Shown: piece by piece, positions 2,591 to 17,248 of the stretch
Layout of the letters: every line of letters starts with the position of its first letter
Numbering within the stretch: the first letter of the stretch is position 1
Assembly (NCBI GenBank): GCA_018262705.1
Contig: JADFDQ010000008.1
Coordinates: 62,001-126,000, forward strand
Source of the DNA: Xanthomonas sp.
Lineage (GTDB): Bacteria; Pseudomonadota; Gammaproteobacteria; Xanthomonadales; Xanthomonadaceae
Direction: 5' to 3'
DNA: 64,000 bases
Notes under the pieces: model-generated
The model's input: only the letters and a program-made list of their open reading frames with translations
What the model was told of the DNA's origin: nothing
Database searches by the model: none
Position numbers and translations under genes: made by a program

Positions 2591-3529
2591 ATGAGAACAG
2601 GAATTGTCGGCGCACGCGGCCATACCGGCGCGGAATTGATTGGCTTGATCGCAGCGCACCCGCGCTTCGAATTGGCGTTTGTCACCTCACGCGAATGGGA
2701 CGGCCAGCGCCTGGCTGACCACAACGCTGCCTACACGGGGCAATTGCGCTATAGCAATCCCGCGCACGAAGACTTGCCAACCCTCGGTGCCGATGTGGTG
2801 ATTCTGGCGCTGCCCAATGGCAAGGCCTCCGCCATCGTGCAGGCATTCGACGCGGCCGGCGTGGACCCGGTCATCATTGATCTATCGGCCGACTACCGTT
2901 TCGACCCCAGTTGGTATTACGGCCTGCCGGAGTTGACCCGCCATCTCTACACAGGCCAGCGCCGGATCAGCAATCCTGGCTGCTATGCCACCGCGATGCA
3001 GCTGGCCATCGCGCCGATGTGCAATGTATTGGAAGGCGCGGTGCAATGCTTTGGGGTGTCTGGCTGTTCCGGCGCCGGCACCACGCCCAGCGACAAAAAC
3101 AATGTGGAATTGCTGCGCGACAACCTGATGCCCTATGCACTCACCGGGCATGTCCATGAGCGCGAAGTCTCCCGTCAGTTGGGGCATGCGGTGGAGTTCA
3201 TGCCGCATGTGGCAGCGCATTTTCGTGGCATCGCCTTGACTGCGAATTTGCACCTGTCTATCGCTTTTGATTTGGATGAAGTGCTGGCGCGCTATCGCAA
3301 TCGCTATGCGGGCGAGCGCTTGGTGCATGTGCAAGAGGCCGCGCCGTGGGTCAGCCGGATTGCAGGCCGCCACCATGTCGAAATTGGCGGTTTTACCTTG
3401 AGTGGCGATGGCCGGCGTTTGGTAGTGGTGGCGACCGAAGACAATTTGTTGAAAGGCGCGGCCACGCAAGCGATGCAGAACATCAACATGGCGTTTGGTT
3501 TGGACGAATTTGCAGGCATTCCCCTGTAG
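2591..3529 (+). CDS. argC: N-acetyl-gamma-glutamyl-phosphate reductase
   Basis: Reduces N-acetylglutamyl phosphate with NADPH to the semialdehyde, the third step of arginine synthesis. The 312-residue protein has the Rossmann start [17 protein letters not shown] and the catalytic cysteine motif SNPGCYATA (Cys131). [10 protein letters not shown] and the C-terminal [14 protein letters not shown] segment are family-typical. The ATG at 2591 sits next to the conserved [10 protein letters not shown] start; an in-frame ATG at 2570 would add seven residues. The gap to argB is 77 bases. The TAG stop (3527-3529) lies inside a GTAG REP element, so the repeat defines the last codon of the gene. Confidence 0.93.
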
Positions 3530-3587
3530 GAGCGCACATCGGGGCGCGACCTCGGGATGCCAGTCGCGCCCAAACGTGCGCTCCTAC
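3526..3587. repeat. GTAG-type REP element between argC and argH
   Basis: A 62-base imperfect palindrome begins GTAGGAGCGCAC and ends GTGCGCTCCTAC, with a second inner pair around GGGGCGCGAC / GTCGCGCC. Related copies occur at 17339, 23812, 39270 and 54820. GTAG at one end of a hairpin is the hallmark of REP elements moved by RAYT (REP-associated tyrosine) transposases, as in the SMAG elements of Stenotrophomonas. It likely forms an mRNA hairpin between argC and argH. Confidence 0.85.
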
Positions 3588-3617
3588 AAATTAAGACAAT
3601 CAGGACCAGGTGACGAT

Positions 3618-4913
3618 ATGTCCGATCTACTTTGGCAAAAACCCGGTGTGGCGGTGGATGCACAAATCCAGCGTTTTCTTGCGGGCGATGACGTGATTCT
3701 GGATCGCGAATTCTTCCTGCACGACATCACCGCCAGCACCGCGCATGCCGAGGGCTTGCAGCACGTCGGCATCCTCAGCGTTGACGAGTTGGCTGCGCTC
3801 AAGCGTGAATTGGCGCAGCTCGCCGAGGACTTCAGCAGCGGTGCATTCGTGCTGGATGCACAGTACGAAGATTGCCATTCCGCCATCGAAGCGCGGCTCA
3901 CCGAACGCTTGGGCGATGCCGGCCGCAAGATCCACACCGGGCGCAGCCGCAACGACCAGATTCTGGTGGCCACACGGTTGTGGCTGAAGGAAAAATTGGC
4001 GCGTGTTGCCGAATTGTCGCGTGACATCGCCAAGGTGGCATTGGACCGCGCGTCTGCCGAAGCGATGTTGCCGATTCCCGGTTATACCCATATCCAGCGT
4101 GCGGTGGTGTCATCCGCTGGCATGTGGTGGGCGGGCTGGGCAGAGGCGTTCATCGATAACGCCATTCGTGCGCGCAGCACGGTTGCCTTGGTCGACTGCA
4201 ACCCGTTGGGCACGGCGGCCGGCTACGGCGTCAACCTGACATTGGATCGCGAACACACCACGCAGGCGCTGGGTTTTGCGCGCATGCAGATTTCGCCGAT
4301 CTACGCGCAACTGTCGCGTGGCAAATTCGAGCTGGCCGCATTGGAAGCACTGGGCAGCGCCACCCTGGATTTGCGTCGCATTGCATGGGATCTGTCGCTG
4401 TTCACCAGTGGCGAATATGCCTTCGTGGCGTTGCCGGCGCAGTACACCACCGGCAGCTCGATCATGCCCAACAAGCGCAACCCCGACGTGATCGAATTGA
4501 TGCGCGCCACCCATGCCAGCGTGGCGGCGGCGCGGACCGAAATCGAACAATTGTTGTCGTTGCCGTCGGGCTATCACCGTGACCTGCAAAACAGCAAGCC
4601 CGCCATCGTGCATGGCTTTGGGCGTGGCTTGGCGGCATTGGAATTGTTGCCGGCGTTATTGGCCAATCTGGAATGGCGGCCTGACAAGCTGCGCGCCGCG
4701 ATGGATTCGGGCATGTACGCCACCGACGTGGCCGTAGAGGCCGCCATTGCCGGGGTGCCGTTCCGCGAAGCCTACAAAGCCGCAGCGGCGGCGGCCGACA
4801 GCGCGGGCTTGGGGCGCACGCCGGAGGGTTCCCTGCAGGTGCGCACATCTCCGGGCGCGGCGGCGGATTTGCGGCTAGGGATCCTGAATACGCGGTGGCG
4901 CGCTTTGGCCTGA
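3618..4913 (+). CDS. argH: Argininosuccinate lyase
   Basis: Splits argininosuccinate into arginine and fumarate, the last step of the pathway. The 431-residue protein belongs to the fumarase/aspartase superfamily: TGRSRNDQ near residue 115, GYTHIQRA with the general acid His158, and the signature [12 protein letters not shown] with the catalytic serine at about 281. The ATG at 3618 gives the usual [10 protein letters not shown] start and follows an AGG-rich ribosome site at 3605-3612. The gene is separated from argC by 88 bases, mostly REP element, so it may be in the same transcript but not coupled to it. In Xanthomonas proB-proA follow here; in this window they do not. Confidence 0.95.
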
Positions 4914-5188
4914 AATTGCCGTGCCGCGCGTTTTATTGATCGGAGCGGCATGGGGCGATGCAGGGCGGTGGTTTCCAGGTGCTTGCTGGCAATTGCTTGC
5001 CGGGGAAGTCGCATGGTGGCTAAAGCTGGGCTAGAGTCAATGCATTGGGGTAATACGCGGGCTGGATTCGGGGTCGGGGGCCGGACGCCACAGCATCAAG
5101 GCGTGGGATCGTGATCCCGGATTCATCCCGAACTGTCGGGATGTGGGCGTGTTGTTGCCGATTCGCGAAGCCAGGGGGATAGCCTTCG
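4914..5188. other. Intergenic leader before the CHAT gene, with two hairpins
   Basis: Two small palindromes lie in the leader: GGGATCGTGATCCC (5105-5118) and a perfect 8-bp stem CATCCCGA/TCGGGATG (5124-5143). TAATAC at 5051-5056 could be a -10 box, but no convincing -35 box precedes it. A strong ribosome site AGGGGGA (5172-5178) serves the CHAT gene. The region marks the change from arginine genes to the secretion cluster and probably holds its promoter. Confidence 0.4.
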
Positions 5189-7417
5189 ATGCGAAAACTG
5201 ACTGTACGACTTCGGGAGCGCCGCACCGCGCTGGCCGTGGCTCTGGCGGGGCTACTCGTCTGCGGATCGGCCTTTGCCGATTGTGCGCCCACGGCAATGG
5301 CGCTTGCGACGGCCGGCTCGGCCGCCCCCTTGCCAGCGCCGCCGTCACCGCAGACTGTCGCCCCCCGGGTAGCGGTTGCCGGCAACCCGACGCGGGAAGC
5401 GCTGGAGGCCATGAGTCGGCTGCAGGATGCCGATACCGCCTTGTCGCTCGCCGCCGAAGGCGCCGCCCTGTACGCGCAGGAACGGGTCAAGCTGGGCGGC
5501 TACGCCTACTGCAGTCAGGCCGTGGAACTGGCGGATCTGGGCGAGCTGCGCGAAAGCGCGCGGGCGGCAAGCAAGGCCCTCCATGTGGCGCTGGAAACCG
5601 GCAATCCGGATCTGCTCGGCAAGGCCTACCGCGATCTGGCGATCGCTTTCAGCTACGCCGGCCAGTTGGAACGTGCCGAACAATTTGCAACCCTAGCGCT
5701 GAAATATCCGGGCGTGGATCCGACCCAGGTGCTGGGGCCGGCGCACAAGATCCTTGGCGACGTGCGCGCACGGCAAGGGCGCTATGCCGAAGCGATCGCC
5801 CTGTACGACCAAGCCAATGGCGAAAGTTCACCGCGCTTCCAGCCGCTGGTAGCGGCTTCGCTGGCCAACGCCTTGATTCAGTCCGGCGATCTGGTTCGCG
5901 CCCGCAACACGCTGGACGCCCTGCCGGAGCCGGCCGACGGCGCCCTGCGTGCCCAGCTTGCTCGCACGCGTGGCAAGCTGCTGCTGGCCGAAAATCAACC
6001 CGATCAAGCGCTGACGGTGTACCGCCAGCTGGCCGAACTCCCGATCAATGCCGCCGGCGGTGACGGCGTGTTCTACCGCGCTTGGGCGTTGGACGGTGTT
6101 TCCCGTAGCCAAGCTGCCCTGGGCGACGAGGCGGGCGCCGCGCGGTCGCTGGATGAAGCGCTGACCGAGTTCGAACGTGCCCGCGTGCAGTTCCGCAGCG
6201 ACGAGTTCAAGATGGGGCTGTTCTCCGACGCGCAAGACGTATTCGAACGCGCGATCGCCCTGCACGACAAGCTCGGCCAGACCGATCAGGCCTTCGACAT
6301 CAGCGAACGCAGCCGCGCCCGCGCGCTGCTCGATTCGATCGCCGGCCGTGCCGACCTGAATGCCAACGAGACCACCGCGCTCGACGTCCAGGCCCTGCGT
6401 GCCGGACTGGCGCCCGATGAGGCGGTGGTGGCTTTCCACACCCTGCCGGATCATCTGGTGGCCTGGGTGTTGACCCGCGACGGGGTGCGCGAGGTGCGCT
6501 TCCCGACCGCGCTGCCGCGCGCCGATCTGGTCAAGCTGGTGGAAGCCTATCGAACGGCCTTGATCGGCCGCAACGCGGGGATTGGCACGGCCGCCGACCA
6601 GATCGGTCGCTTGCTGCTGGCGCCGCTGCAGATTCCGGCCGGCAAGCGCATGATCATCGTGCCGCACGGCCCGCTGCACTATCTGCCGTTCCAAGCGCTG
6701 CGGCTGGACGGCAAATACCTGATCGAACGCAACCCGGTGTCGCTGGCGCCTTCGGTCAGCATCGCCGCAAGGCTGGCTGCGCACGCACCGACGGCGCAGG
6801 CGCAGCTGTTGGGCTTCGGCAATCCCACCGTCGATGCCAGCGTGGCCGCGCCGCTGCCCGGCGCCGAGCGTGAGGTGCGATCGCTGGCCGCGGATTTCTC
6901 CGACGCCCGGCTGTTCTTCGGCGCCCAGGCCACCCGCGACAATTTCGACGAGTACGCCCCGCAGTCGCAGCTGGTGCACGTGGCGTCCCACGCGATGGTG
7001 GACACCCTCGATCCGCTGCACTCGAAAGTCCTGTTCACCGACGGCAACGGCCAACCGGTCTACCTCGAAGCCAAGGACGTGATGGCCCTGAAGCTGGACG
7101 GGGTCTCCCTGCTCACGCTGTCGGCCTGCGAATCCGGTCTGGGTCGGGTGGAAAATGGCGACGAAGTGCTGGGCTTCACCCGCGCCTTCCTGTCGGCCGG
7201 CACCTCCAGCCTGCTGGCCTCGCTGTGGCCGGTGTCCGACGCCGCGACCGAAAAACTGATGACCACGTTCTACGGCGATCTGGCCAAGGGCAGCAACGCG
7301 CAGGACGCCATGCGCGACGCCCAGCGCGCCGTGCTGGCCAATCCGGCCACCGCGCATCCGTATTACTGGGCGCCGTTCAATCTGATCGGCAACTGGCGGC
7401 TGCGGGTGGCGCGGTGA
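5189..7417 (+). CDS. Exported TPR-CHAT caspase-like protein
   Basis: A 742-residue protein with a classical signal peptide (positive start, hydrophobic 13-29, cleavage after AFA at residue 30). Residues about 60-370 form helical TPR-like pairs rich in alanine. The C-terminal CHAT domain (about 400-740), related to caspases, keeps the putative catalytic pair: His601 in HVASHAMVD and Cys647 in LTLSACESGLG; GPLHYLPFQAL and NRFLSAG-like ARAFLSAGTSSL segments are also typical. The prediction is a cysteine peptidase acting outside the cytoplasm. It is followed after 29 bases by TpsB and then TpsA, suggesting one operon and a role in processing or controlling the secreted adhesin; this role is inferred. 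A Craspase-type CRISPR role is unlikely because the protein is exported. Confidence 0.85.
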   Translation: MRKLTVRLRERRTALAVALAGLLVCGSAFADCAPTAMALATAGSAAPLPAPPSPQTVAPRVAVAGNPTREALEAMSRLQDADTALSLAAEGAALYAQERVKLGGYAYCSQAVELADLGELRESARAASKALHVALETGNPDLLGKAYRDLAIAFSYAGQLERAEQFATLALKYPGVDPTQVLGPAHKILGDVRARQGRYAEAIALYDQANGESSPRFQPLVAASLANALIQSGDLVRARNTLDALPEPADGALRAQLARTRGKLLLAENQPDQALTVYRQLAELPINAAGGDGVFYRAWALDGVSRSQAALGDEAGAARSLDEALTEFERARVQFRSDEFKMGLFSDAQDVFERAIALHDKLGQTDQAFDISERSRARALLDSIAGRADLNANETTALDVQALRAGLAPDEAVVAFHTLPDHLVAWVLTRDGVREVRFPTALPRADLVKLVEAYRTALIGRNAGIGTAADQIGRLLLAPLQIPAGKRMIIVPHGPLHYLPFQALRLDGKYLIERNPVSLAPSVSIAARLAAHAPTAQAQLLGFGNPTVDASVAAPLPGAEREVRSLAADFSDARLFFGAQATRDNFDEYAPQSQLVHVASHAMVDTLDPLHSKVLFTDGNGQPVYLEAKDVMALKLDGVSLLTLSACESGLGRVENGDEVLGFTRAFLSAGTSSLLASLWPVSDAATEKLMTTFYGDLAKGSNAQDAMRDAQRAVLANPATAHPYYWAPFNLIGNWRLRVAR

Positions 7418-7446
7418 GCGCCGCAACGGGACGAGACGAGGACGTG

Positions 7447-9132
7447 ATGATGGAACACCACAACGACTGCCCGCCGCGCCGCCCGGCTCGCCTGCGACCG
7501 GCCCGCCTGCGCCTGACCATGCTGGCGGTCGCGCTGGGCCTGGGGCTGCCGGCCACGCCGGCGCTGGCCGTCGATGCCGCTCCGCAGGACACGCCGCAGC
7601 AGGCCCAGTCTCTGCCCGAGCCGCAGATGGCGCGGCAGGCGCAGGCCAGCTTCGTGCTGCAGGGTGTCGAATTCGTCGGCGTGACCCTGGTGCCGGAATC
7701 GGAGCTGCAGGCTGCGGTCGCCGACCTGATCGGTCAAAGTGTCACTTTCGCCGACCTGCAGCAGCTCACCGTCAAGGCGGCGGCGGTGTACGCGCGGCAC
7801 GGCTACGGGCTGGCGCAGGTATTCGTGCCGGTGCAGGAGGTGGTGGAGGGTCGGATCAAATTGAGCGTGCTGGAAGGCAAACTGGGCGAGGTGTCGATCG
7901 AGATCGCCGAAGGCGCGCCGATCCACCGCGAACGCGTGGCCGGGATGCTCTCCGTGCTCAAGTCAGGCGAGCCGCTGAGCACGAACGAATACGAGCGGGC
8001 GATGCTGCTGCTGTCCGATCTGCCCGGCATCAAGCCGCAGTCAACCGTCACGGTGGGCTCGTCTTCTCAGACCAACGATCTGCGCGTCCAGGTCGATGCC
8101 CGCGACCGCTTCCAGTTCGCGTTGGGGCTGGACAACAACGGCACCCGCGATTCCGGTCGATTGCGGCTGACCGGCAGCCTGCGCTGGGCCAGCCCATTCG
8201 AGCGCGGTGACAACCTCGACCTGCGGATCATGGCCGCGCAGGGCATGCACACCGCGTTCGGCCGGATTTCCTACGAAACCCCGGTCGGCTATGCCGGGTT
8301 GCGCATCGGCGGCGGGCTGGCGCGGGTGCAATACGAGTTGGGCGGGCCGTTCGCGCCGCTCAAGCCCACCGGCGTGGGCAATGTCGCCGACCTGTCGTTC
8401 AACTACCCGCTGATCCGCCAGCGCACCACCAACCTGTTCCTGCGCGGTGCGGTGGAACGCAAGTCGCTGACCGACCGCTACGAAGCAGTGGGCCTGGAAA
8501 GCCGCAAACGCATCAACGGCGCCAGCCTTGGGCTGGCGCTGGAGCACCGCGACCGCTGGGGCGGAGGCGGCTACAACAGCGCCAATGCGCAACTCTATCG
8601 CGGCACGCTGCAGCTGCTCGACCCGATGGCCAAGCTGCTCGACAAGCCGCCGTTTGGCTATGCCACCGAGGGCAGTTTCACCAAGTTCACCCTGCAGGCG
8701 GCGCGGTTGCAGTATCTGGCGCCGCGCTGGAGCCTGTACGCGAGCGTCGGCTTCCAGTCCGCCAGCCGCAACCTCGATCCCTACGAAAAACTGTCGCTGG
8801 GTGGGCCCAAGGCGGTGCGCGCCTATGCCACCGGCGAGGTGCTGGTCGATGACGGTTGGCTGGGTTCGTTGGAACTGCGTTTCTCACCGCGACCGGAAAC
8901 CACGCTGTATGCGTTCTACGACGCGGCGCACGGTGACATGTACCACCGTCGTCGCAGCTTCGATCCGGACCTCGGCCGCAGCCTGCGCGGCTACGGCCTC
9001 GGCTTCAGCTGGAGCAAACCCGGCAACGTGAGCATGAATCTGAGCGTGGCCTGGCGGGCCACCGGCCCCGGCCTGACCGACGGCGGCGACCGCAATCCGC
9101 GTATTTACTGGTCGATCCAGAAGGCGTTCTGA
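7447..9132 (+). CDS. TpsB/FhaC-type two-partner secretion outer-membrane transporter
   Basis: This 561-residue protein should form a 16-stranded outer-membrane barrel that exports the TpsA encoded next. It has a signal peptide (cleavage near TPALA, residue 41), a ShlB-type POTRA domain (about 69-145, starting FVLQGVEFVGVTL) and a second POTRA (about 150-225), then the barrel. The conserved VRGY loop motif appears as VRAYATGE near residue 457, and the protein ends in phenylalanine, as expected for recognition by the BAM complex. The ATG at 7447 was chosen because GAGG lies five bases upstream; the next codon is also ATG. The TpsA start follows its stop by 11 bases. Confidence 0.92.
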   Translation: MMEHHNDCPPRRPARLRPARLRLTMLAVALGLGLPATPALAVDAAPQDTPQQAQSLPEPQMARQAQASFVLQGVEFVGVTLVPESELQAAVADLIGQSVTFADLQQLTVKAAAVYARHGYGLAQVFVPVQEVVEGRIKLSVLEGKLGEVSIEIAEGAPIHRERVAGMLSVLKSGEPLSTNEYERAMLLLSDLPGIKPQSTVTVGSSSQTNDLRVQVDARDRFQFALGLDNNGTRDSGRLRLTGSLRWASPFERGDNLDLRIMAAQGMHTAFGRISYETPVGYAGLRIGGGLARVQYELGGPFAPLKPTGVGNVADLSFNYPLIRQRTTNLFLRGAVERKSLTDRYEAVGLESRKRINGASLGLALEHRDRWGGGGYNSANAQLYRGTLQLLDPMAKLLDKPPFGYATEGSFTKFTLQAARLQYLAPRWSLYASVGFQSASRNLDPYEKLSLGGPKAVRAYATGEVLVDDGWLGSLELRFSPRPETTLYAFYDAAHGDMYHRRRSFDPDLGRSLRGYGLGFSWSKPGNVSMNLSVAWRATGPGLTDGGDRNPRIYWSIQKAF

Positions 9133-9143
9133 GGAGCAAAGTC

Positions 9144-12100
9144 ATGAGCGCGAACAGCAACAACCGCAAACACACCCAGCGTCGGCCGCGTCGCGGTCGC
9201 TTGGCCCTGGCATTGGCGATGGCGCTGCTGGCGCCGGCGGCGTGGAGCCAGTCGCTGCCGGATACCGGCACGGTGGCATCCGGTGCCGCCACCTCCAATC
9301 TCGACGTCGGCGGCATCATGAATCCCGGCGGCGCCGGCACGGCGATGACGATCACCCAGACCTCGTCGTCGGCGATCATCAATTGGGAATCCTTCAACGT
9401 CGATACGGCCGCCACGCTCACCTTCGTCCAGCCGGATGCCGGCAGCGTCCTGCTCAATCGCGTGATCGGCAACATTTCCGGGATCATCACGCCCTCGATC
9501 ATCAATGGGACCATCGCGTCGAACGGCAATATCTTCCTCGTCAATCCGATGGGCATCCTGTTCGGGGCTGGTTCGTCCGTCAACGTCGGCGGGCTGGTGG
9601 CCTCGACCCTGGACATCACCGACGCCGATTTCCTCACCGGTGCCGGCATGGCCAATCCGCATTACGTGTTCACGGCCGGCAATCCGTTCGTGGGGTACGC
9701 CATCGTGAACCAGGGCGCACTGAGCACGGTTGCGGGTTCGCAAGGCACCATCGCGCTGCTGGCCGCGCGGATCGAAAATCAGGCGGGAGGCACGATTTCG
9801 GCGCCCGGCGGCAGCGTGGTGTTTGGCGCCGCCAGCGGCGCGAACCTGGATTTCTTCGGCGATGGTCTGACCACGGTGACGCTGACCGGCAACGGGTTGG
9901 AGCTGGACGTCTACTGCAACATCAGCCCGGTACCTACGTCCTCCTGCCTCGGCGGCATCGAGAGCATCGGCAACATCGCCGCGGTCGGCGGTCACGTCGA
10001 AATGCGCACCCAGACCCAGGATGGCAATCCGCAGCCAATCGGCACCGGCCTGTTCACCGAGCCGTCGAACGGTGGCCGGATCTGGATTGGTGGCAGGATC
10101 GACGCCCGCGCATCCGCGACCGATGTCGGCTCGATCATCCTCGATGCCGGGCAGGGCAACGTCGATATCGGCGGCGTTGCCGGACAAACCGCCTGGATCA
10201 ACGTCAATTCAACCGCGGCCGGGCAAAATGCGGGCACCATCTTCGTCCGCGGCAACCAGATCTTCACCTATCTGTGCGTCGGTCCAGGTGGGGTCTGCGC
10301 GGGCAATGATTCGCTGGGCTGGCTCGACGCCACCGCCTACGGCGCCGGCGCCAACGGCGGCCAGATCACCATCGACGCCGGCAACCTTTTCTACCACACG
10401 GGCGTTGTCCAAGCGGCCGCCGCGTCCGGTGCGGGTGGCACCATTCAGATCAATGCCGGTGACGCGCAGATCTACAACTGGATCACCGCCGAAGGATTGG
10501 GGGGCAATGGTGGCACCATCAACCTCACCGCGCCCAACATCCTCCTGCATCGCGGCCAGTTGCTCTGGCTTGGCGGCCCCGGGATCCTGTATTCACAGGC
10601 GGTGCTGTCGGCCTACGGCTCCACCAATGGCGGCACGGTCAATCTGACCGGCGACCTGAACGTGGTGGATCTGGGCAATGTCATACCTGCCGATCCCGAG
10701 TACCAAGCGGTCATCAACGTGCGCGGCATGAACGGCAACGGTGGTGCGGTGGACGTGCAGGGCGGCACCACCGTCGACATCGACGCCACTTGGTTCGTGA
10801 ATGCCGATGGCACGGCCAATGGTGGCTCCGTCAACCTGTCCGCCATGTACATGTACGTCCACGGTGACATGACCGCCAATGGTGACGTGACCGGCGGCAG
10901 CATCGACCTTTATGCCAATTACAACCTGGATGTCAGTGGTAATTTGACTGCCAACGGCGATGTCGATGGCGGTTCGATCACGTTGTATGGCTCTGCCGAT
11001 GTGACGGTTTCCGGCACGCTGACCGCCAATGGCGGCATGACGCCTCTCCCGGCCAACAGCATCGGCAATGGCGGCACGATCAACGTGACCGGCAGCGATG
11101 TCGACGTGAGCGGCAATCTCTACGCCAGGGGCGGCAGCCAGCAATACATCGATCCCAACAATTCCAGCCTGAATCGGTACAGCTTCGGCGGCCATGTCTA
11201 CGTCTACGGCGATTCCGTCAACCTGAGTGGCCTGTTCGACACCACCGCCCTGAATGACTGGGGCACGGTCCAGACCGATGCGTATACCTACCTGTTTGCG
11301 GCTGCGACGACCAATGTGACTTCGGGCGCGTGGTTCATCGACAGCAACGAGGTCTGGGTGACCACGGCAGCCGGCGCCAGCGCACATAATTTGGGAGCTG
11401 TACTCGTCGATCAAACCTTGGCGCAGTCATTGGACAACGGCACCAGCATCTATCTGAATGCAGACAACACGGTATACAGCGCATCGGGTAGCGGCGCGGT
11501 AAACATCGACTCCGGGGCATCGATCACATCCAGTTACGGTTTGCTGAACCTGCTGGCGCTCAACGGGATCTTCGGCAGCGGTTTCACCATGAACGCCGGC
11601 TGGGGGGTGTTCCTGGATGCGACGGGATCGGATATCCAACTTGACAACTTCACGATGGGCGGCGGTACCGTCAAGATGCAGGGCAACTCCGTTTCCCTGA
11701 CTTCAGGACACATCAACACATCCGGAGGGGGGTTCGAAGCCACCGCAACCACCAACGGCATCAGATTCTATTCGACGTGGATCGACGATTCCGGTGACGG
11801 CGACATCCACCTGGATGCGTCGGGTTCCTTGTACGGCATCAATGCACGGTATGCCTACCTCGACACCGACGGCGGTGACATTTCGATCGATGCCGGCGGC
11901 AACGGCGTTTTCCTTGCCAACGGCGCAATTTTGAGCGGGGGCGGTGCGATCACGGTCACCGGGACGGCAATCGGCACTGACTACTATGCCGTCACGGTGC
12001 GCGATACGACCCTCGACAGCGGCGGTGGTGACATTGCGATTATCGGCAACCACCTCGGCTATCAGGGCGGTGTGTTGATCCAGAACTCCGTTGTCGAAAG

Positions 12101-14636
12101 CACGGGGGGCGACATCAGCATTGATGGCGATACCGCTGGCGGCAGCTCCAGGAATGGCGTAGTCATGTATGCAGCCCAGATCGACAGCGGTGCCGGCGCG
12201 GTTGCCATCACCGGAGGCGGTGATGGCAATGTCTCGGTTTCCATCTATGGCGGAACGATTGACGGCACCGGCATCTCCATTTTTGGTGACGGAGCGTCGT
12301 ACGCCGGGGTCATGATTTCCGGATACGCCGAAATCACTGGCTTGGGCGGCGACATCCATATCTCCGGCCAGGGCTACACCACTGGCGTGCTCTTGTCCGA
12401 GGTACAGATAAACAACTGCTGCGGGAAAATCGTGCTCGAGGGAGACGGCGGCGAAGGCGGCCTTCTTGTTTACGACACGACCATCAGCGGCAGCAGCGAC
12501 ATCACGTTGACCGGCACGGGTGGCGGTTCCACCGGGATGGGTGTACGCGTCGAGACATCCAGCGTGAGCAACACCGGCGGCAACATCAGCATCGAGGGCG
12601 ATGCCGGCGGCGGCGACATGTCCGTGTATCTGAACGCGGCCCAGCTCTACAGCACGACCGGCACGATTTCGATCACTGGCAGCGGAGTATCCAATACTGC
12701 AGTCAACGTCCAAGGCGGATCGGTTGACGGTGGCTCCATCTCCATTCTCGGTGATGGCGCGAGAAATTTCGGGGTCATGATCGAAGGATCTGCTCAGGTC
12801 ACCAGCGCCGGCGGCGACATCCATATCACTGGCCAGGGCGACAACGCTGGCGTGATGTTGTACACGGCGCAGATAGCCAGTGGCGGCGGAAACATCCTGT
12901 TCGATGCGGACGGCGGCATAGACGGCCTCCTTGTTGACGGTACGACCATCGCCAGCAGCGGCGGCAGCATCGAAATCGGCGGGCACGGCGGCAGCGGCGC
13001 GGGCGTCGACCTGGACGCCGACTCGAGCGTGGATGCGGGCGCGGGAATGGTCATCGTGCGCGCCGCCAATGATGGGATCAGCGATGCGATCGTGCTCCAC
13101 GGCAGCATCACCAGCACGACGGCAGTGAACCTGCGCCCGCTCGACGAAACCGACGCCATCTATCTCGGCAGCGGCAACGGCTTCGTGCTGGACAACGCCG
13201 AGCTGGCCAATATCACCTCGCTGTGGCTGGTGATCGGCAGTGCCCAGCAGCAGGGCGCGATCCAGGTCATGAGCAACATCCTCTATGGCGGCAACCTGAC
13301 GCTGCAGAACCAGGGGGGCAACGCCAGCATCTTGCTGAATGCCATGCTGGATGTCTCCGGCTACACCCTGGGCCTGTTCAGCGGCGGCAGCATCGTCCAG
13401 ACCAGCGCCGGCGCCATCCATGCCGAAAGCCTGCTCGCGATGGCCAAGGACGACGTACTGCTGAACGATGCCCAGAACGATGTGACGGGCAATACCCTGG
13501 CCGGCAGCGCGGGCGGGCAATTCCTCTATCTCGACGCCAATGGGCTGGCCATTGGCAATGTCTCGGCCTACGGCTTCAATGTCAGCACGGGATCGACGAC
13601 ATCCATCGGAAGCTTGGGCATCTCCGCCACCGACATCCTGGTGCAGACGCTGACCGGCGATCTGACCCTGAACGGCAACGTGCAGGGCGACAATGTTGAT
13701 CTGGTCGCGGCTGGGGTGTTCCTCAACCCGGGCGGCGCGACCATCACCGCCAGCAATGCCTGGCGGGTCTGGGCCAGCACCTGGATCGGCGAGGATCGAG
13801 GTGGATTGGTGGGCAGCGGATCGCTTCCGAACCTGTACAACTGCACCTACGGCGGTTCCTGCGGCGTCACCGTGGGCAGCGGCAACCACTTCATCTACAC
13901 CCAGCAGCCGACCCTGACCGTGACCGGCGATGACTTCAGCCGCGAGTATGGCGACGCCAATCCCGTGTTCACGTTTACGGCAAACGGACTGATTCTTGGT
14001 GACACGCTGGCCAATGTGCTGTTCGGTTCGGTGGGCAGTTCCACCAGCAGCGGCAGCAACGTCGGTCTCTACCTGATCGGCGGCAGCTTCACTTCACCTG
14101 CGGGCTATGCGATCAACTTCCTGCCGGGATCCCTGACCATCACCCCGGCGACCTTGGTGTTCACGTCCGATCCGCTGACCTGGTACATGGGGATGCCGTT
14201 CCCGGCATTCACCGGTACGGTCACCGGTTTCAAGAATGGGGAAACACTGGCGCAGGTCTTCCCCAATGGCTTGCTCTGGGAAGCCATCATCGGCCCAACA
14301 GGACAACTGATGCCCGGGTATTACCCGATCTTCGGGATGGGCAATGCGCTGAACTACGTGATCGTGCAAGCGCCGTCCAACCAGACGGCCTTGTATCTGT
14401 TGCCGCCGCCGGAATCATCGAGCCGGCCGCTGGATTTCATCTCCGAGCCGGTGGAAACCTTCGTCTATGAAACCAATTTCGAGACGGTGGCCATGTGCCC
14501 GCTGACGCTTACCGGCGATGACAAGGAACTGGCCGGCGGCGATCCGCTGGGCAACGAATGGTCGAAGGTGCGCAAGCGCCTGAACCTGGTGAACTGCTTC
14601 AGCAACGACCGTCGCGGCGGCTGCGGCAGCTTCTGA
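9144..14636 (+). CDS. Giant TpsA filamentous-haemagglutinin-like adhesin with MBG-like domains
   Basis: A 1830-residue exported protein, the probable cargo of the adjacent TpsB. After a long signal peptide (arginine-rich start, cleavage near AAWS, residue 35), residues about 36-260 form a TPS secretion domain with the NPMGILFG variant of the NPNGI motif. Residues 260-1570 are glycine/serine/threonine-rich beta-helix repeats, including a 155-157-residue tandem duplication (residues 988-1300). Two MBG-like beta domains follow (about 1588-1665, with REYGDANPVFTF, and 1668-1750). The tail has three cysteines, in AMCPL, VNCFSN and GGCGSF. Its ribosome site GAGGAG overlaps the tpsB stop. Family knowledge suggests adhesion or biofilm; the actual ligand is unknown. 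Confidence 0.9.
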   Translation: MSANSNNRKHTQRRPRRGRLALALAMALLAPAAWSQSLPDTGTVASGAATSNLDVGGIMNPGGAGTAMTITQTSSSAIINWESFNVDTAATLTFVQPDAGSVLLNRVIGNISGIITPSIINGTIASNGNIFLVNPMGILFGAGSSVNVGGLVASTLDITDADFLTGAGMANPHYVFTAGNPFVGYAIVNQGALSTVAGSQGTIALLAARIENQAGGTISAPGGSVVFGAASGANLDFFGDGLTTVTLTGNGLELDVYCNISPVPTSSCLGGIESIGNIAAVGGHVEMRTQTQDGNPQPIGTGLFTEPSNGGRIWIGGRIDARASATDVGSIILDAGQGNVDIGGVAGQTAWINVNSTAAGQNAGTIFVRGNQIFTYLCVGPGGVCAGNDSLGWLDATAYGAGANGGQITIDAGNLFYHTGVVQAAAASGAGGTIQINAGDAQIYNWITAEGLGGNGGTINLTAPNILLHRGQLLWLGGPGILYSQAVLSAYGSTNGGTVNLTGDLNVVDLGNVIPADPEYQAVINVRGMNGNGGAVDVQGGTTVDIDATWFVNADGTANGGSVNLSAMYMYVHGDMTANGDVTGGSIDLYANYNLDVSGNLTANGDVDGGSITLYGSADVTVSGTLTANGGMTPLPANSIGNGGTINVTGSDVDVSGNLYARGGSQQYIDPNNSSLNRYSFGGHVYVYGDSVNLSGLFDTTALNDWGTVQTDAYTYLFAAATTNVTSGAWFIDSNEVWVTTAAGASAHNLGAVLVDQTLAQSLDNGTSIYLNADNTVYSASGSGAVNIDSGASITSSYGLLNLLALNGIFGSGFTMNAGWGVFLDATGSDIQLDNFTMGGGTVKMQGNSVSLTSGHINTSGGGFEATATTNGIRFYSTWIDDSGDGDIHLDASGSLYGINARYAYLDTDGGDISIDAGGNGVFLANGAILSGGGAITVTGTAIGTDYYAVTVRDTTLDSGGGDIAIIGNHLGYQGGVLIQNSVVESTGGDISIDGDTAGGSSRNGVVMYAAQIDSGAGAVAITGGGDGNVSVSIYGGTIDGTGISIFGDGASYAGVMISGYAEITGLGGDIHISGQGYTTGVLLSEVQINNCCGKIVLEGDGGEGGLLVYDTTISGSSDITLTGTGGGSTGMGVRVETSSVSNTGGNISIEGDAGGGDMSVYLNAAQLYSTTGTISITGSGVSNTAVNVQGGSVDGGSISILGDGARNFGVMIEGSAQVTSAGGDIHITGQGDNAGVMLYTAQIASGGGNILFDADGGIDGLLVDGTTIASSGGSIEIGGHGGSGAGVDLDADSSVDAGAGMVIVRAANDGISDAIVLHGSITSTTAVNLRPLDETDAIYLGSGNGFVLDNAELANITSLWLVIGSAQQQGAIQVMSNILYGGNLTLQNQGGNASILLNAMLDVSGYTLGLFSGGSIVQTSAGAIHAESLLAMAKDDVLLNDAQNDVTGNTLAGSAGGQFLYLDANGLAIGNVSAYGFNVSTGSTTSIGSLGISATDILVQTLTGDLTLNGNVQGDNVDLVAAGVFLNPGGATITASNAWRVWASTWIGEDRGGLVGSGSLPNLYNCTYGGSCGVTVGSGNHFIYTQQPTLTVTGDDFSREYGDANPVFTFTANGLILGDTLANVLFGSVGSSTSSGSNVGLYLIGGSFTSPAGYAINFLPGSLTITPATLVFTSDPLTWYMGMPFPAFTGTVTGFKNGETLAQVFPNGLLWEAIIGPTGQLMPGYYPIFGMGNALNYVIVQAPSNQTALYLLPPPESSSRPLDFISEPVETFVYETNFETVAMCPLTLTGDDKELAGGDPLGNEWSKVRKRLNLVNCFSNDRRGGCGSF
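12105..13043 (+). repeat. Internal tandem duplication of about 470 bp in tpsA
   Basis: Two consecutive units of about 157 codons match in order: GG(D/N)ISI(D/E)GD at 12105 and 12576, then GVM(I)SG/EGS, then GGDIHI(S/T)GQG at 12345 and 12810, then DTTI/GTTI. The units have diverged, so the duplication is old enough for drift. Shorter, weaker copies of the GGDISID module precede it. It lengthens the beta-helix stalk. Confidence 0.75.
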
Positions 14637-14642
14637 GTGGAA

Positions 14643-14674
14643 GGAGCCGTCCGCGACCGGTGGCGGACGGCTCC
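14643..14674 (+). terminator. Strong hairpin after tpsA
   Basis: A perfect 12-bp stem (GGAGCCGTCCGC at 14643-14654, GCGGACGGCTCC at 14663-14674) with an 8-base loop begins 7 bases after the tpsA stop. No T-run follows, so it is either a weak intrinsic terminator or a 3' mRNA-protecting hairpin closing the CHAT-tpsB-tpsA unit. Confidence 0.7.
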
Positions 14675-15000
14675 GGGATGGTTGGAACCCTTCCGGGGTG
14701 GATTGGGGATGAATCGAGCCTGACTCACTCGATCCGGTTTTGCGGGGTTTTCGGCGTTTCCAAGGGGGCGAGACTGCGTCGGAATTATTCAATACAATCA
14801 ATAATTTGATGCATATCGTCGGGCGGTTCGCAAATCCGGATACTGCGCTGCAAGGCTTTTTCAAATTGCGAGTGCAGGTCAAACGAACGCGCGCGTTGTC
14901 CGGTTGTCTCCGTCCAAGGCGTATTGATGGACAAGCGGGCGAACAATGTTTGGACGCCCCCCCAAGTGGCCGGATGGCCACGGTGTCAGGAGAATGGAAA
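14675..15000 (+). promoter_or_regulatory. Leader of the OmpA-family gene with an AT-rich patch
   Basis: The stretch 14782-14815 is strikingly AT-rich for this window and includes TACAAT at 14793-14798, a plausible -10 box, though no good -35 box is seen. That would give a leader of about 200 bases. AGGAG at 14988-14992 is the ribosome site for the ATG at 15001. No other gene is apparent in the gap. Confidence 0.35.
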
Positions 15001-15657
15001 ATGAGTGTCAAGACCTGGATCCGCGGCACGCTGGCGATCGCCCTGCTGGCGAGTTCCGGTGCCGTGTTTGCGCAAAGTACCCAAGACAGCGAGCCGACCG
15101 TCGATTCGATCGTCAACGCGCTGAAATCGAACAACAACCAGGCCCAGGATGAGCAGACCCGCGCGCTGCGCCCGGGTGCGGCTTCGATGGCGACCACCGC
15201 GCCGGCGGCGGCCCCGGAGGCCGAGTCGGCACCCGCAGCGGCTGCGGCCCCGAAGCCGAAACCGAGGCCGACCGTGAGTCGCCCGCACCGCCCCAGCGTT
15301 GCGGCATCGGCGAATCGCGCTTCGACCAGCATGACGATCAACTTCGAGTTCAACTCGGATCAGATCGCGGGTGACTCGCAGCACGTCATGGCCACACTGG
15401 CCGAGGCATTGGCTTCGCCGCAGTTGGCCGATCGCCAATTCGCCGTGGTCGGTCATACCGATGCCAAGGGGGCGCAGACCTACAACATGTCTTTGTCCGA
15501 GCGCCGCGCCGCTGCGGTGCGTGCCTATCTGGTCGCGCACGGCATCGACGCCAGTCGCCTGACTGCGGAGGGCAAGGGCGAGAGCCAGCTGCTCAATGCG
15601 CGCAATCCGGGCGCCGCCGAAAACCGTCGCGTCGAAATCATCGCGACCGGCAAGTAA
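15001..15657 (+). CDS. OmpA-family peptidoglycan-binding protein
   Basis: A 218-residue exported protein: signal peptide (cleavage after VFA, residue 22), a short polar segment, an alanine/proline-rich linker (about 58-95), and a C-terminal OmpA-like domain (about 105-215). The domain shows INFEFNSDQI, VVGHTDAKG, NMSLSERRAAAVRAYL and ENRRVEI, the residues that contact diaminopimelate in peptidoglycan. There is no lipobox and no N-terminal barrel, so it is probably periplasmic and bound to the wall. It lies between the TPS cluster and a GumN-like gene; no direct functional link is shown. Start choice rests on the AGGAG site 8 bases upstream. Confidence 0.9.
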   Translation: MSVKTWIRGTLAIALLASSGAVFAQSTQDSEPTVDSIVNALKSNNNQAQDEQTRALRPGAASMATTAPAAAPEAESAPAAAAAPKPKPRPTVSRPHRPSVAASANRASTSMTINFEFNSDQIAGDSQHVMATLAEALASPQLADRQFAVVGHTDAKGAQTYNMSLSERRAAAVRAYLVAHGIDASRLTAEGKGESQLLNARNPGAAENRRVEIIATGK

Positions 15658-16004
15658 GCATCGAAAGCCAGCTTCCCTCGACCGCCACGACTGTCGGGAG
15701 GGGGACTGGCGGCAGGGCCCGGGGACGGCAGGATGGACGGCCGGTGCCATCGCATTGCTGCGGTGGGCCGGCCGGGTGTACTAAAGAAGAGGGCTGAACA
15801 ACTCCATCCTGCAGTTGTCAGACCTCGCTAAGTCCGGCACATGCCCGGACTCGGCTCACACGAACCAATCACTTGCGTGATCGATTCGTGGTCGGCCATC
15901 CTTGGTCGACATGAAGTTCTGAATGATTCAGGGCTTTCTTAACGAAGGTCCGACGCGCGGTGCATGGATGCAAGCAGTCGTTGGGGATAACGAGTGCCGG
16001 GATC
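15658..16004. other. Intergenic region with two palindromes
   Basis: This 347-base gap holds no convincing gene. A 7-bp hairpin AGTCCGG/CCGGACT (15831-15851) could end the ompA-like transcript, although no T-run follows. A larger interrupted palindrome (15859-15890: CACGAA...ATCAC-TTGC-GTGAT...TTCGTG) is symmetrical enough to be an operator or a hairpin. Neither recurs elsewhere in the window as far as I can see. Confidence 0.4.
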
Positions 16005-17099
16005 ATGACGCGATTCGCGATCGACGACTGCAGGTTGCCCACAGCATGGCGTGGGCGTCGCACGCCAGGCCGCGTGCGCAAATGCTTGCTGGCCCTGTTG
16101 GCTCTCGCCGTCGGCGCGGCGTTTGCAGGGCAACCGCAGGATCCGCCGCAGCAACAGCAAACGCCGCAGCAACCCGATGCCACTCGCAGCCTGAGCGCCC
16201 CCGCGGCCACCCGCGCCGCCGCCGGTTCCCGCCTGCGGCCGGGCGTTCCCGATGTGCGTGGCGTGCTGTTCCGGGTCACCGCGCCGAAGGCCGCCGTTCG
16301 TGGTCGGCGAGCAGGATCCGATGCACCGCGAGCCGGTGTTGGCTACCTGTTCGGAACAATCCATTTCGGCACCCCGGAAGAGCAAGGGATCGATTACGGC
16401 AAGCTCGGCAAGCTGATCGAAGGCGTCACCGTGTTCGCCAATGAAGCGGACGCCGACGCTCGCTGGGATCCCGCGTTCAACGCGCTGATGTACCTGTCGC
16501 CGCAAACGCCGCTGTCCAGCTTGATCGATGCCGAGGGCATGGCGCAGGCCAGACAGTTGTTGCCGGAGGTCAAGGAAGCCGATCTGCAGCGGATGAAGCC
16601 GTGGACCGTGCTGACCCTGCTGGAAGCGCGCGGGGAGGGCACCACCTACGCGAGCCTTGATACCCGGATGCAGAAGATGGCGCGCGCCGCCGGCAAGCGG
16701 TTGGTGCATCTGGAGTCGGTGGAAGACCAGCTGCGGGCGCTGGATTGCGTCCCGACCCGGGAACAGGCGCAGGTGCTCGCCGAACGCCTGCGCCGCCCGT
16801 GGTTCCTGCAGGCCGATTCGGCCGAAGCCATGGCTGCGTATCGGGGACGTGACCTCGGCGCCTGGCTGGCCAACGTCGACCGCATGGACGGTCTCGACGA
16901 TGCCGCCAAGGCAATCGAACAACGCTCGCGCCTGTGCCTGCTGGAAAACCGCAACACCCGCTGGATCGAACAAATCGAAGCGCTGTACCGCGGCGAACCG
17001 ACGCTAATCGCCGTCGGCGCCCTGCACCTGGCCGGTCCGAACGGACTGATCGCCCGCCTGCGCAAGGACGGCTTTACGGTCGAAGAAGTGCCGTTTTAG
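16005..17099 (+). CDS. TraB/GumN-family exported protein
   Basis: A 364-residue protein of the TraB/PrgY/GumN (Tiki-like) family. GYLFGTIHFG is the first family motif, FANEADAD supplies a conserved acidic pair, and LIAVGALHLAGPNG is the C-terminal motif; in Tiki proteases equivalent His and Glu residues bind metal, so hydrolase activity is possible. A hydrophobic stretch (CLLALLALAVGAAFA, about residues 27-41) is a signal peptide. The ATG at 16005 leaves an unusually long N-terminal region; a GTG at 16074 would give a standard signal peptide and may be the true start. A glutamine/proline-rich spacer follows the signal. Confidence 0.8.
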   Translation: MTRFAIDDCRLPTAWRGRRTPGRVRKCLLALLALAVGAAFAGQPQDPPQQQQTPQQPDATRSLSAPAATRAAAGSRLRPGVPDVRGVLFRVTAPKAAVRGRRAGSDAPRAGVGYLFGTIHFGTPEEQGIDYGKLGKLIEGVTVFANEADADARWDPAFNALMYLSPQTPLSSLIDAEGMAQARQLLPEVKEADLQRMKPWTVLTLLEARGEGTTYASLDTRMQKMARAAGKRLVHLESVEDQLRALDCVPTREQAQVLAERLRRPWFLQADSAEAMAAYRGRDLGAWLANVDRMDGLDDAAKAIEQRSRLCLLENRNTRWIEQIEALYRGEPTLIAVGALHLAGPNGLIARLRKDGFTVEEVPF

Positions 17100-17124
17100 C
17101 GGCGGCGCGGCTTGCACGCAGGCA

Positions 17125-17149
17125 CAAAAAAACCGCCGGATGGCGGTTT
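17125..17149 (-). terminator. Intrinsic terminator of tRNA-Pro
   Basis: Read on the minus strand, an 8-bp stem AAACCGCC/GGCGGTTT with a 4-base loop runs directly into a T-run. It lies 22 bases past the tRNA 3' end and also between the convergent GumN-like gene and the tRNA. Confidence 0.9.
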
Positions 17150-17171
17150 GCTTGCGTGACACTGACCGGAT

Positions 17172-17248
17172 TGGTCGGGGAGACAGGATTTGAACCTGCG
17201 ACTTCTACGTCCCGAACGTAGCGCTCTACCAGGCTGAGCTACACCCCG
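17172..17248 (-). tRNA. tRNA-Pro (anticodon CGG), CCA encoded
   Basis: A 77-base cloverleaf on the minus strand. The anticodon arm is CTACG-TTCGGGA-CGTAG, giving anticodon CGG for codon CCG; the T arm has GGTTCAAATCC, and the 3' end is ACCA. The D loop contains AGCCTGGTAGA. The acceptor stem pairs except for a U6-U67 mismatch. CCG is frequent in these GC-rich genes. Confidence 0.95.

Follow-up and report, generated by a model that had tools for sequence, protein, structure and literature searches.

CHAT proteases are known chiefly from CRISPR complexes that RNA activates. In one of these, Craspase, mutation of Cys627 of Csx29 is reported to have abolished activity (PMC9729208); Csx30 is reported to interact with Craspase mainly through its C-terminus, and Craspase orthologues to cut at non-conserved sites (PMC11106740). 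For adhesins of the two-partner secretion (TPS) type, TpsA is reported to be locked in TpsB by disulfide hooks at its C-terminus (PMC5422565, PMC3983070), and tethering of Haemophilus influenzae HMW1 requires the last 20 residues together with a disulfide (PMC3983070). Pseudomonas aeruginosa CdrA, exported by CdrB and thought to be held by such a C-terminal Cys hook, is cut near its C-terminus and thereby released by LapG, a periplasmic cysteine protease, and CdrA truncated so as to lose its Cys residues is invariably released (PMC4694147, PMC11898600). Bordetella FhaB/FhaC likewise undergoes proteolytic maturation and release of its adhesin, by SphB1 (PMC5422565). The same 2017 review adds that TPS operons do not seem to include the genes for maturation or release proteases (PMC5422565).

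The locus described here, found in a window of 64,000 nucleotides (the whole stretch of DNA analysed), shares features with each of these systems and coincides with none. Like HMW1/HMW1B/HMW1C, it adds a third, dedicated gene to a TPS pair; as far as the accessible text goes, that third partner is a glycosyltransferase in the case of HMW1C. In contrast to LapG, which is described there as transglutaminase-like and c-di-GMP-controlled, and to SphB1, a subtilisin autotransporter encoded elsewhere, the protease gene here is of the CHAT type and stands first in the adhesin operon. The LapG family (Peptidase_C93) matched 0 of 25 genomes of the genus, in a search whose control matched in only 1 of 14. 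The TPR-CHAT architecture and His/Cys dyad are those of Csx29, which binds Csx30 mainly through the C-terminal part of the latter; Csx29, however, works in a CRISPR effector complex and the protein here carries a signal peptide. Assignment to the Csx29 family was rejected (NCBIfam Csx29 model 50.5 bits, cut-off 300). A preliminary description of this DNA had called the system distinct from known TPS processing: that holds for the type of protease and its place in the operon, but not for C-terminal release by a periplasmic cysteine protease, which LapG and CdrA already exemplify. Within the open-access literature, so far as its text was available, we found no description of a CHAT or caspase-like protease with a TPS module, and the accessible part of a review covering T5SS and other secretion systems (PMC10778856) contains none of the terms 'CHAT', 'T6SS cluster' or 'T6SS gene cluster'.

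A TPR-CHAT gene ahead of a TpsB–TpsA pair

Features of the locus are collected in Table 1. The open reading frames, their coordinates, the 1830-residue TpsA and the short gaps between genes (29 bases between CHAT and TpsB, 11 between TpsB and TpsA), all given in the preliminary description, were reproduced by the ORF list together with Pfam and NCBIfam, as were its signal peptide on the CHAT protein and its intact His601/Cys647 pair by the comparisons below. A closing hairpin, also claimed there, fared less evenly: a strong stem exists (the surrounding 127 nt fold at -60.2 kcal/mol, z -2.4), but it lacks a T-run and is absent from the five terminator-like sites.

Table 1. Annotated features at the locus, in window coordinates.
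Feature	Position	Strand	Details
TPR-CHAT protein	5189..7417	+	742 aa; ORF, Pfam
Signal peptide of CHAT protein	~5189-5278	+	by eye
TPR block of CHAT protein			~residues 77-326
CHAT domain	6593-7393	+	residues 469-735; PF12770 E 2.5e-66
His601 codon (CHAT dyad)	6989-6991	+
Cys647 codon (CHAT dyad)	7127-7129	+
TpsB, ShlB/FhaC type outer-membrane transporter	7447..9132 (ATG 7447)	+	561 aa; POTRA_2 at 7651-7878
TpsA	9144..14636 (ATG 9144)	+	1830 aa; TPS secretion domain ~9336-9830; MBG_2 ~13914-14138
CHAT-linked C-terminal tail of TpsA	14406..14633	+	last 76 residues
EWSKVRKRLNL segment	14556..14588	+	residues 1805-1815; corresponds to EW.KVR.RPNL in most relatives
Cys hook C1818-x8-C1827-x2-F1830-COOH	14595..14633	+	candidate disulfide anchor in TpsB
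Hairpin 3' of tpsA	14643..14674	+	12-bp stem, without T-run
OmpA-family protein	15001..15657	+	likely ATG 15001; mechanical ORF from 14740
TraB/GumN-family gene	15960..17099	+
tRNA-Pro(CGG)	17172..17248	-

The CHAT domain scores 224.5 bits against a curated PF12770 cut-off of 24, and this segment can be aligned with solved chains of TPR-CHAT/Csx29. Every row of a 22-row alignment keeps His601 and Cys647, and the two residues are present in 58 of 58 CHAT domain matches holding those positions (59 matches from 56 loci, a few of them overlapping or fragments). With a domain above cut-off and the dyad kept, the protein is a predicted peptidase. Its N-terminus reads by eye as a Sec signal peptide, MRKLTVRLRERRTALAVALAGLLVCGSAFA/DC, with an AFA/D site and without a lipobox. 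Of 54 homologous N-termini, which come in part from overlapping loci, 49 passed a simple rule that asks for a hydrophobic run, a basic n-region and small residues at a cut site; of the five misses, four (L043, L048, L196, L198) look by eye like signal peptides slightly below the thresholds and one (L033) was scored on sequence upstream of the likely start, and one pass (L158) rests on a stretch unlike a signal peptide. Since the protein has neither a TPS domain (Pfam) nor a lipobox (by eye), the periplasm is a likelier location than the surface. At residue 493, His is replaced by Asn in 17 of the 57 CHAT matches holding the position.

TpsB matches POTRA_2 (1.6e-15) and ShlB (1.4e-25) in Pfam, as a type Vb transporter should, and TpsA carries an N-terminal TPS domain (PF05860, 1.4e-18; TIGR01901, 3.2e-18; Pfam and NCBIfam) and two MBG_2 stretches (Pfam). 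The host genome (2.49 Mb in 24 contigs) holds a single CHAT match and a single TpsB match. Directly before the MBG domain, window positions 13824-13910 encode a block, LPNLYNCTYGGSCGVTVGSGNHFIYTQQP, that is well conserved across genera.

Conservation and genomic surroundings of the trio

Searched in 99 genomes, the CHAT protein found some match in 49, and the strong matches (67-87%, query aside) all lie within the genus Thermomonas, in 23 of its 25 genomes. TpsB occurs in 24 of the 25; the 23 with a close copy (at least 66%) are the same 23 that have CHAT, and the exceptions are G016, with only a 34% paralogue, and G007, with none. HMMs place CHAT, TpsB and, where the DNA reaches that far, TpsA one after another on a single strand at 35 of 35 loci (L032-L048, L112-L125 and L158-L161; L037 covers only CHAT and TpsB, and L122 and L123 overlap in one genome). 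These loci include Thermomonas, Lysobacter, Stenotrophomonas, Pigmentiphaga, Corticibacter, Caballeronia and a Pseudomonadales MAG, and none has CHAT without TpsB. The same order recurs by tblastn in 17 of 17 Caballeronia regions (the genus of G469).

Our comparison of CHAT loci covered the best 80 of 530 confirmed loci. At the 63 more distant loci (L049-L111, many on short contigs), the TpsB, TPS-domain and tail models found no match in any of the DNA covered. These models were built from this clade; the one for TpsB did find the 34% paralogues, whose neighbouring TpsA escaped the TPS-domain model. In two cyanobacterial plasmid regions, the annotation contains no TPS gene. A general association of CHAT with TPS genes is accordingly rejected on the 63 distant loci among the matches listed. 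Chance neighbourhood is rejected as well, given the conserved order, the co-occurrence and the common tail described below. The linkage of CHAT and TPS genes is thus real and specific, tied by order and co-occurrence. The preliminary description had named, as the finding that would tell against it, that CHAT and TPS genes stand apart in most relatives; within the clade they stand together, and more distant CHAT genes do occur with no TPS gene next to them.

Mean identity among nine representatives, which include two Thermomonas and two Caballeronia, is 0.57 for the CHAT domain, 0.50 for TPR, 0.48 for TpsB, 0.42 for the TPS domain, 0.32 for the middle of TpsA and 0.41-0.45 for its tail. Several loci depart from the simple arrangement. 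At L122 (G022) the whole trio is tandemly duplicated, with one CHAT copy split in two frames and a TpsA with a diverged tail behind that copy; at L034/L166 (G006) two tandem TpsA genes, both tailed, follow one CHAT-TpsB pair; and at L121 (G010), positions 7771-13434, TpsB and TpsA share one open frame of 1887 aa, which may be a fusion or a sequencing error.

In most lineages examined, the trio lies within or next to type VI secretion system (T6SS) loci. Annotated Caballeronia megaplasmids carry tssJ, CHAT, TpsB, TpsA and tssA in sequence (L209 apparently repeats one of these loci), and the tssJ-trio-tssA arrangement is present in all 17 tblastn regions from that genus. Elsewhere, T6SS genes flank the trio in G634, G729, G769/L041, G749, G470 and Paraburkholderia L169, and TssH flanks it in G676 (with TssK and a TssM-like protein), G693 and Pigmentiphaga G468; four ORFs were confirmed as TssH. 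No T6SS gene was found near the trio in L043 (a 13-kb contig) or L044 (10-kb flanks). Within Thermomonas, TssC (PF05943) occurs in 18 of 25 genomes, at 30.5-34.8 kb from CHAT in the 14 that hold both on one contig and on separate contigs in the other four, and in G004 the genes for TssH, TssK, a TssM-like protein, TssA, TssB and TssC lie beyond the trio. Neither CHAT nor TssC occurs in G007 and G016. This genome and G006, G011, G017 and G021 show no TssC match and all keep the trio; across four T6SS-less genomes (three for TpsA), dN/dS is 0.11-0.17 for CHAT, 0.13-0.18 for TpsB and 0.25-0.33 for the C-terminal 270 codons of TpsA.

The simplest reading is that the T6SS core was lost in this genome; alternatively, the others may have gained it. 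A TraB relative adjoins tssK in the T6SS clusters of relatives, and the TraB/GumN gene here may therefore be a remnant of a lost cluster. In G004 and G019, a tRNA-Pro(CGG) lies beyond the T6SS genes. In most Thermomonas loci whose flank is long enough, a relative of the OmpA-family gene follows the trio in the same orientation.

The C-terminal tail of the linked TpsA proteins

Linked TpsA frames range from 1137 to 2395 aa over 27 rows (the shortest is broken, the shortest whole one has 1216, and one is fused to TpsB). As aligned, the bodies of these proteins vary and the tail is common to them: the same C-terminus is present in 26 of the 27, and the exception, L044, ends in another frame, with the tail present in its genome (106 bits). 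In a tail alignment of 20 of the 27 rows (seven were omitted as redundant or broken), C1785, D1800, L1802, W1806, L1815, C1818, C1827 and F1830, in window numbering, are invariant. The pattern D-x-L-x2-[ED]-W ... C-x(7-9)-C-x(1-2)-F-COOH holds in 51 of 52 tail matches, drawn from 51 loci of which a few overlap (e.g., L122/L123 and L167/L209). The terminal Phe is present in all 52, V-R stands three residues past the Trp in 48 of 52 (counted by eye), and the last Cys pair is spaced C-x8-C in 51, with nine residues between in the remaining one.

The Cys pair lies within about the last 20 residues of the linked tails and resembles the anchors of HMW1 and CdrA; compared with HMW1, where the residues are Cys1518 and Cys1528, the tail here is spaced C-x8-C, ends in Phe and includes an EW..VR segment in addition. 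Two TPS pairs of the genus that lack CHAT serve as controls. In both (L126 in G016, L127 in G014) tpsA precedes tpsB, and the TpsA ends, LQCGQNLPAQLTKDCR (G016) and LQCGQHLPVQLIQDCR (G014), have two Cys in a generic hook; neither of these two ends contains a D.L..[ED]W or EW..VR segment or a terminal Phe. The EWSKVRKRLNL segment is a candidate docking or cleavage element, and the conserved tail is a candidate target site, where the preliminary description had named none.

Among 369 genomes sampled across the class, a profile of the tail matched this genome alone, and among 200 genomes in the order of Pigmentiphaga it again matched just one, the query genome. Across the family, with 14 candidates scored per genome for the tail and 2 for CHAT, 30 of 395 genomes have a tail match (one, G007 at 20.6 bits, judged chance) and 29 a strong CHAT match (at least 540 bits). 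Both occur together in 28, on one contig in 26 and on separate contigs in G005 and G023. The two mismatches are due to contig ends: in G011 CHAT is present and TpsA is cut (L032), and in G720 the contig with the tail, 6.3 kb long, breaks off within TpsA (L157). Two further family genomes have a distant CHAT (148-200 bits) and show no TPS match over the 14 kb examined. Fisher's exact p for this co-occurrence is 1e-40 with kinship ignored; as tail and CHAT travel on one cassette, the co-occurrence is partly shared descent. Within Caballeronia (the genus of G469), strong tail matches and CHAT occur in an identical set of 22 of 58 genomes, 18 of which carry both on one contig; one further genome of this genus shows just a weak tail match, dismissed as chance. 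Weak tail matches in G007, G1044 and, as a second match, G1046 were dismissed as chance, no CHAT, TpsB or TpsA match adjoining them.

A proposed release mechanism and its alternatives

We give an even chance to the reading that the three genes form one envelope system, in which TpsB is predicted to export TpsA; the TpsA C-terminus with its Cys hook would stay in the TpsB pore or the periplasm and tether the adhesin, by analogy with HMW1 and CdrA; and the periplasmic TPR-CHAT protein would dock on the conserved tail and cut in or just before it, much as LapG acts on CdrA, so that TpsA is released or its display changed. These features suggest that a dedicated protease controls the adhesin's stay on the cell, and the trio, where it lies near a T6SS, would probably govern how the cell attaches to its neighbours. 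TPR repeats frequently take C-terminal peptides as ligands, which, at a guess, would suit the terminal Phe of the tail. The two tailed TpsA genes of G006, set against a single CHAT match, fit this release model without proving it. A more far-reaching version, which we put forward only tentatively, is that the periplasmic caspase-fold protease is a built-in release switch reading a C-terminal sorting tail, and that the whole served as a grip-and-let-go device for the T6SS (hold the neighbour, fire, release) that has outlived the T6SS here.

Tail conservation could also reflect TpsB. Over the nine representatives the partial correlation of divergence between CHAT and tail given TpsB is 0.19 and that between TpsB and tail given CHAT is 0.38; co-divergence was therefore rejected as proof of contact between CHAT and tail, and the tail may serve TpsB alone. 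This ordering, together with the generic Cys hooks of the two CHAT-less TpsA proteins, speaks for the tail being a plug for TpsB and nothing else, with CHAT working in the periplasm as a quality-control or stress protease on TpsA or TpsB that has stalled. We consider that account unlikely, because the two CHAT-less ends, few as these controls are, lack the D.L..[ED]W motif, V-R and terminal Phe that the linked tails hold almost throughout (51, 48 and 52 of 52, respectively). The invariant Phe, as part of a conserved C-terminal signal, and a cysteine peptidase encoded beside its likely substrate would suit a transpeptidase or sorting enzyme that reads the tail, cleaves, and attaches TpsA to some other molecule of the envelope. 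PorU is the comparison for the logic of such an enzyme. The Cys hook, however, would already offer an anchor, and no additional gene adjoins the trio in every locus compared, which leaves a sorting role distinctly improbable.

We regard it as equally improbable that CHAT serves the T6SS or senses attack and that TpsA is not its substrate. This would explain why the trio lies among or next to T6SS genes in most lineages examined, but five Thermomonas genomes, this one included, keep the trio without TssC, with low CHAT dN/dS in four, and CHAT is never found without TpsB in the 35 loci. Very improbable, finally, is a CHAT protein whose main role is that of a TPR chaperone or scaffold, with proteolysis secondary: its TPR block is conserved about as well as TpsB, but the dyad is retained in every CHAT match that could be scored.

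If the release reading is true, an exported CHAT protein and its probable substrate in a fixed operon would amount to the envelope's own caspase-like switch, and the short conserved candidate docking site would offer a clean test bed for CHAT specificity. The operon would also be a TPS system that encodes its own release protease, contrary to the wording of the 2017 review (PMC5422565). The T6SS link would join adhesion control to contact-dependent weapons, a testable prediction on how attackers hold and release their targets. The preliminary description did not mention this T6SS context. In the window, the interval from argH to tRNA-Pro(CGG) (3495-17248) is variable within the genus, holding either the trio with a T6SS or the trio alone, and two genomes are without CHAT and TssC.
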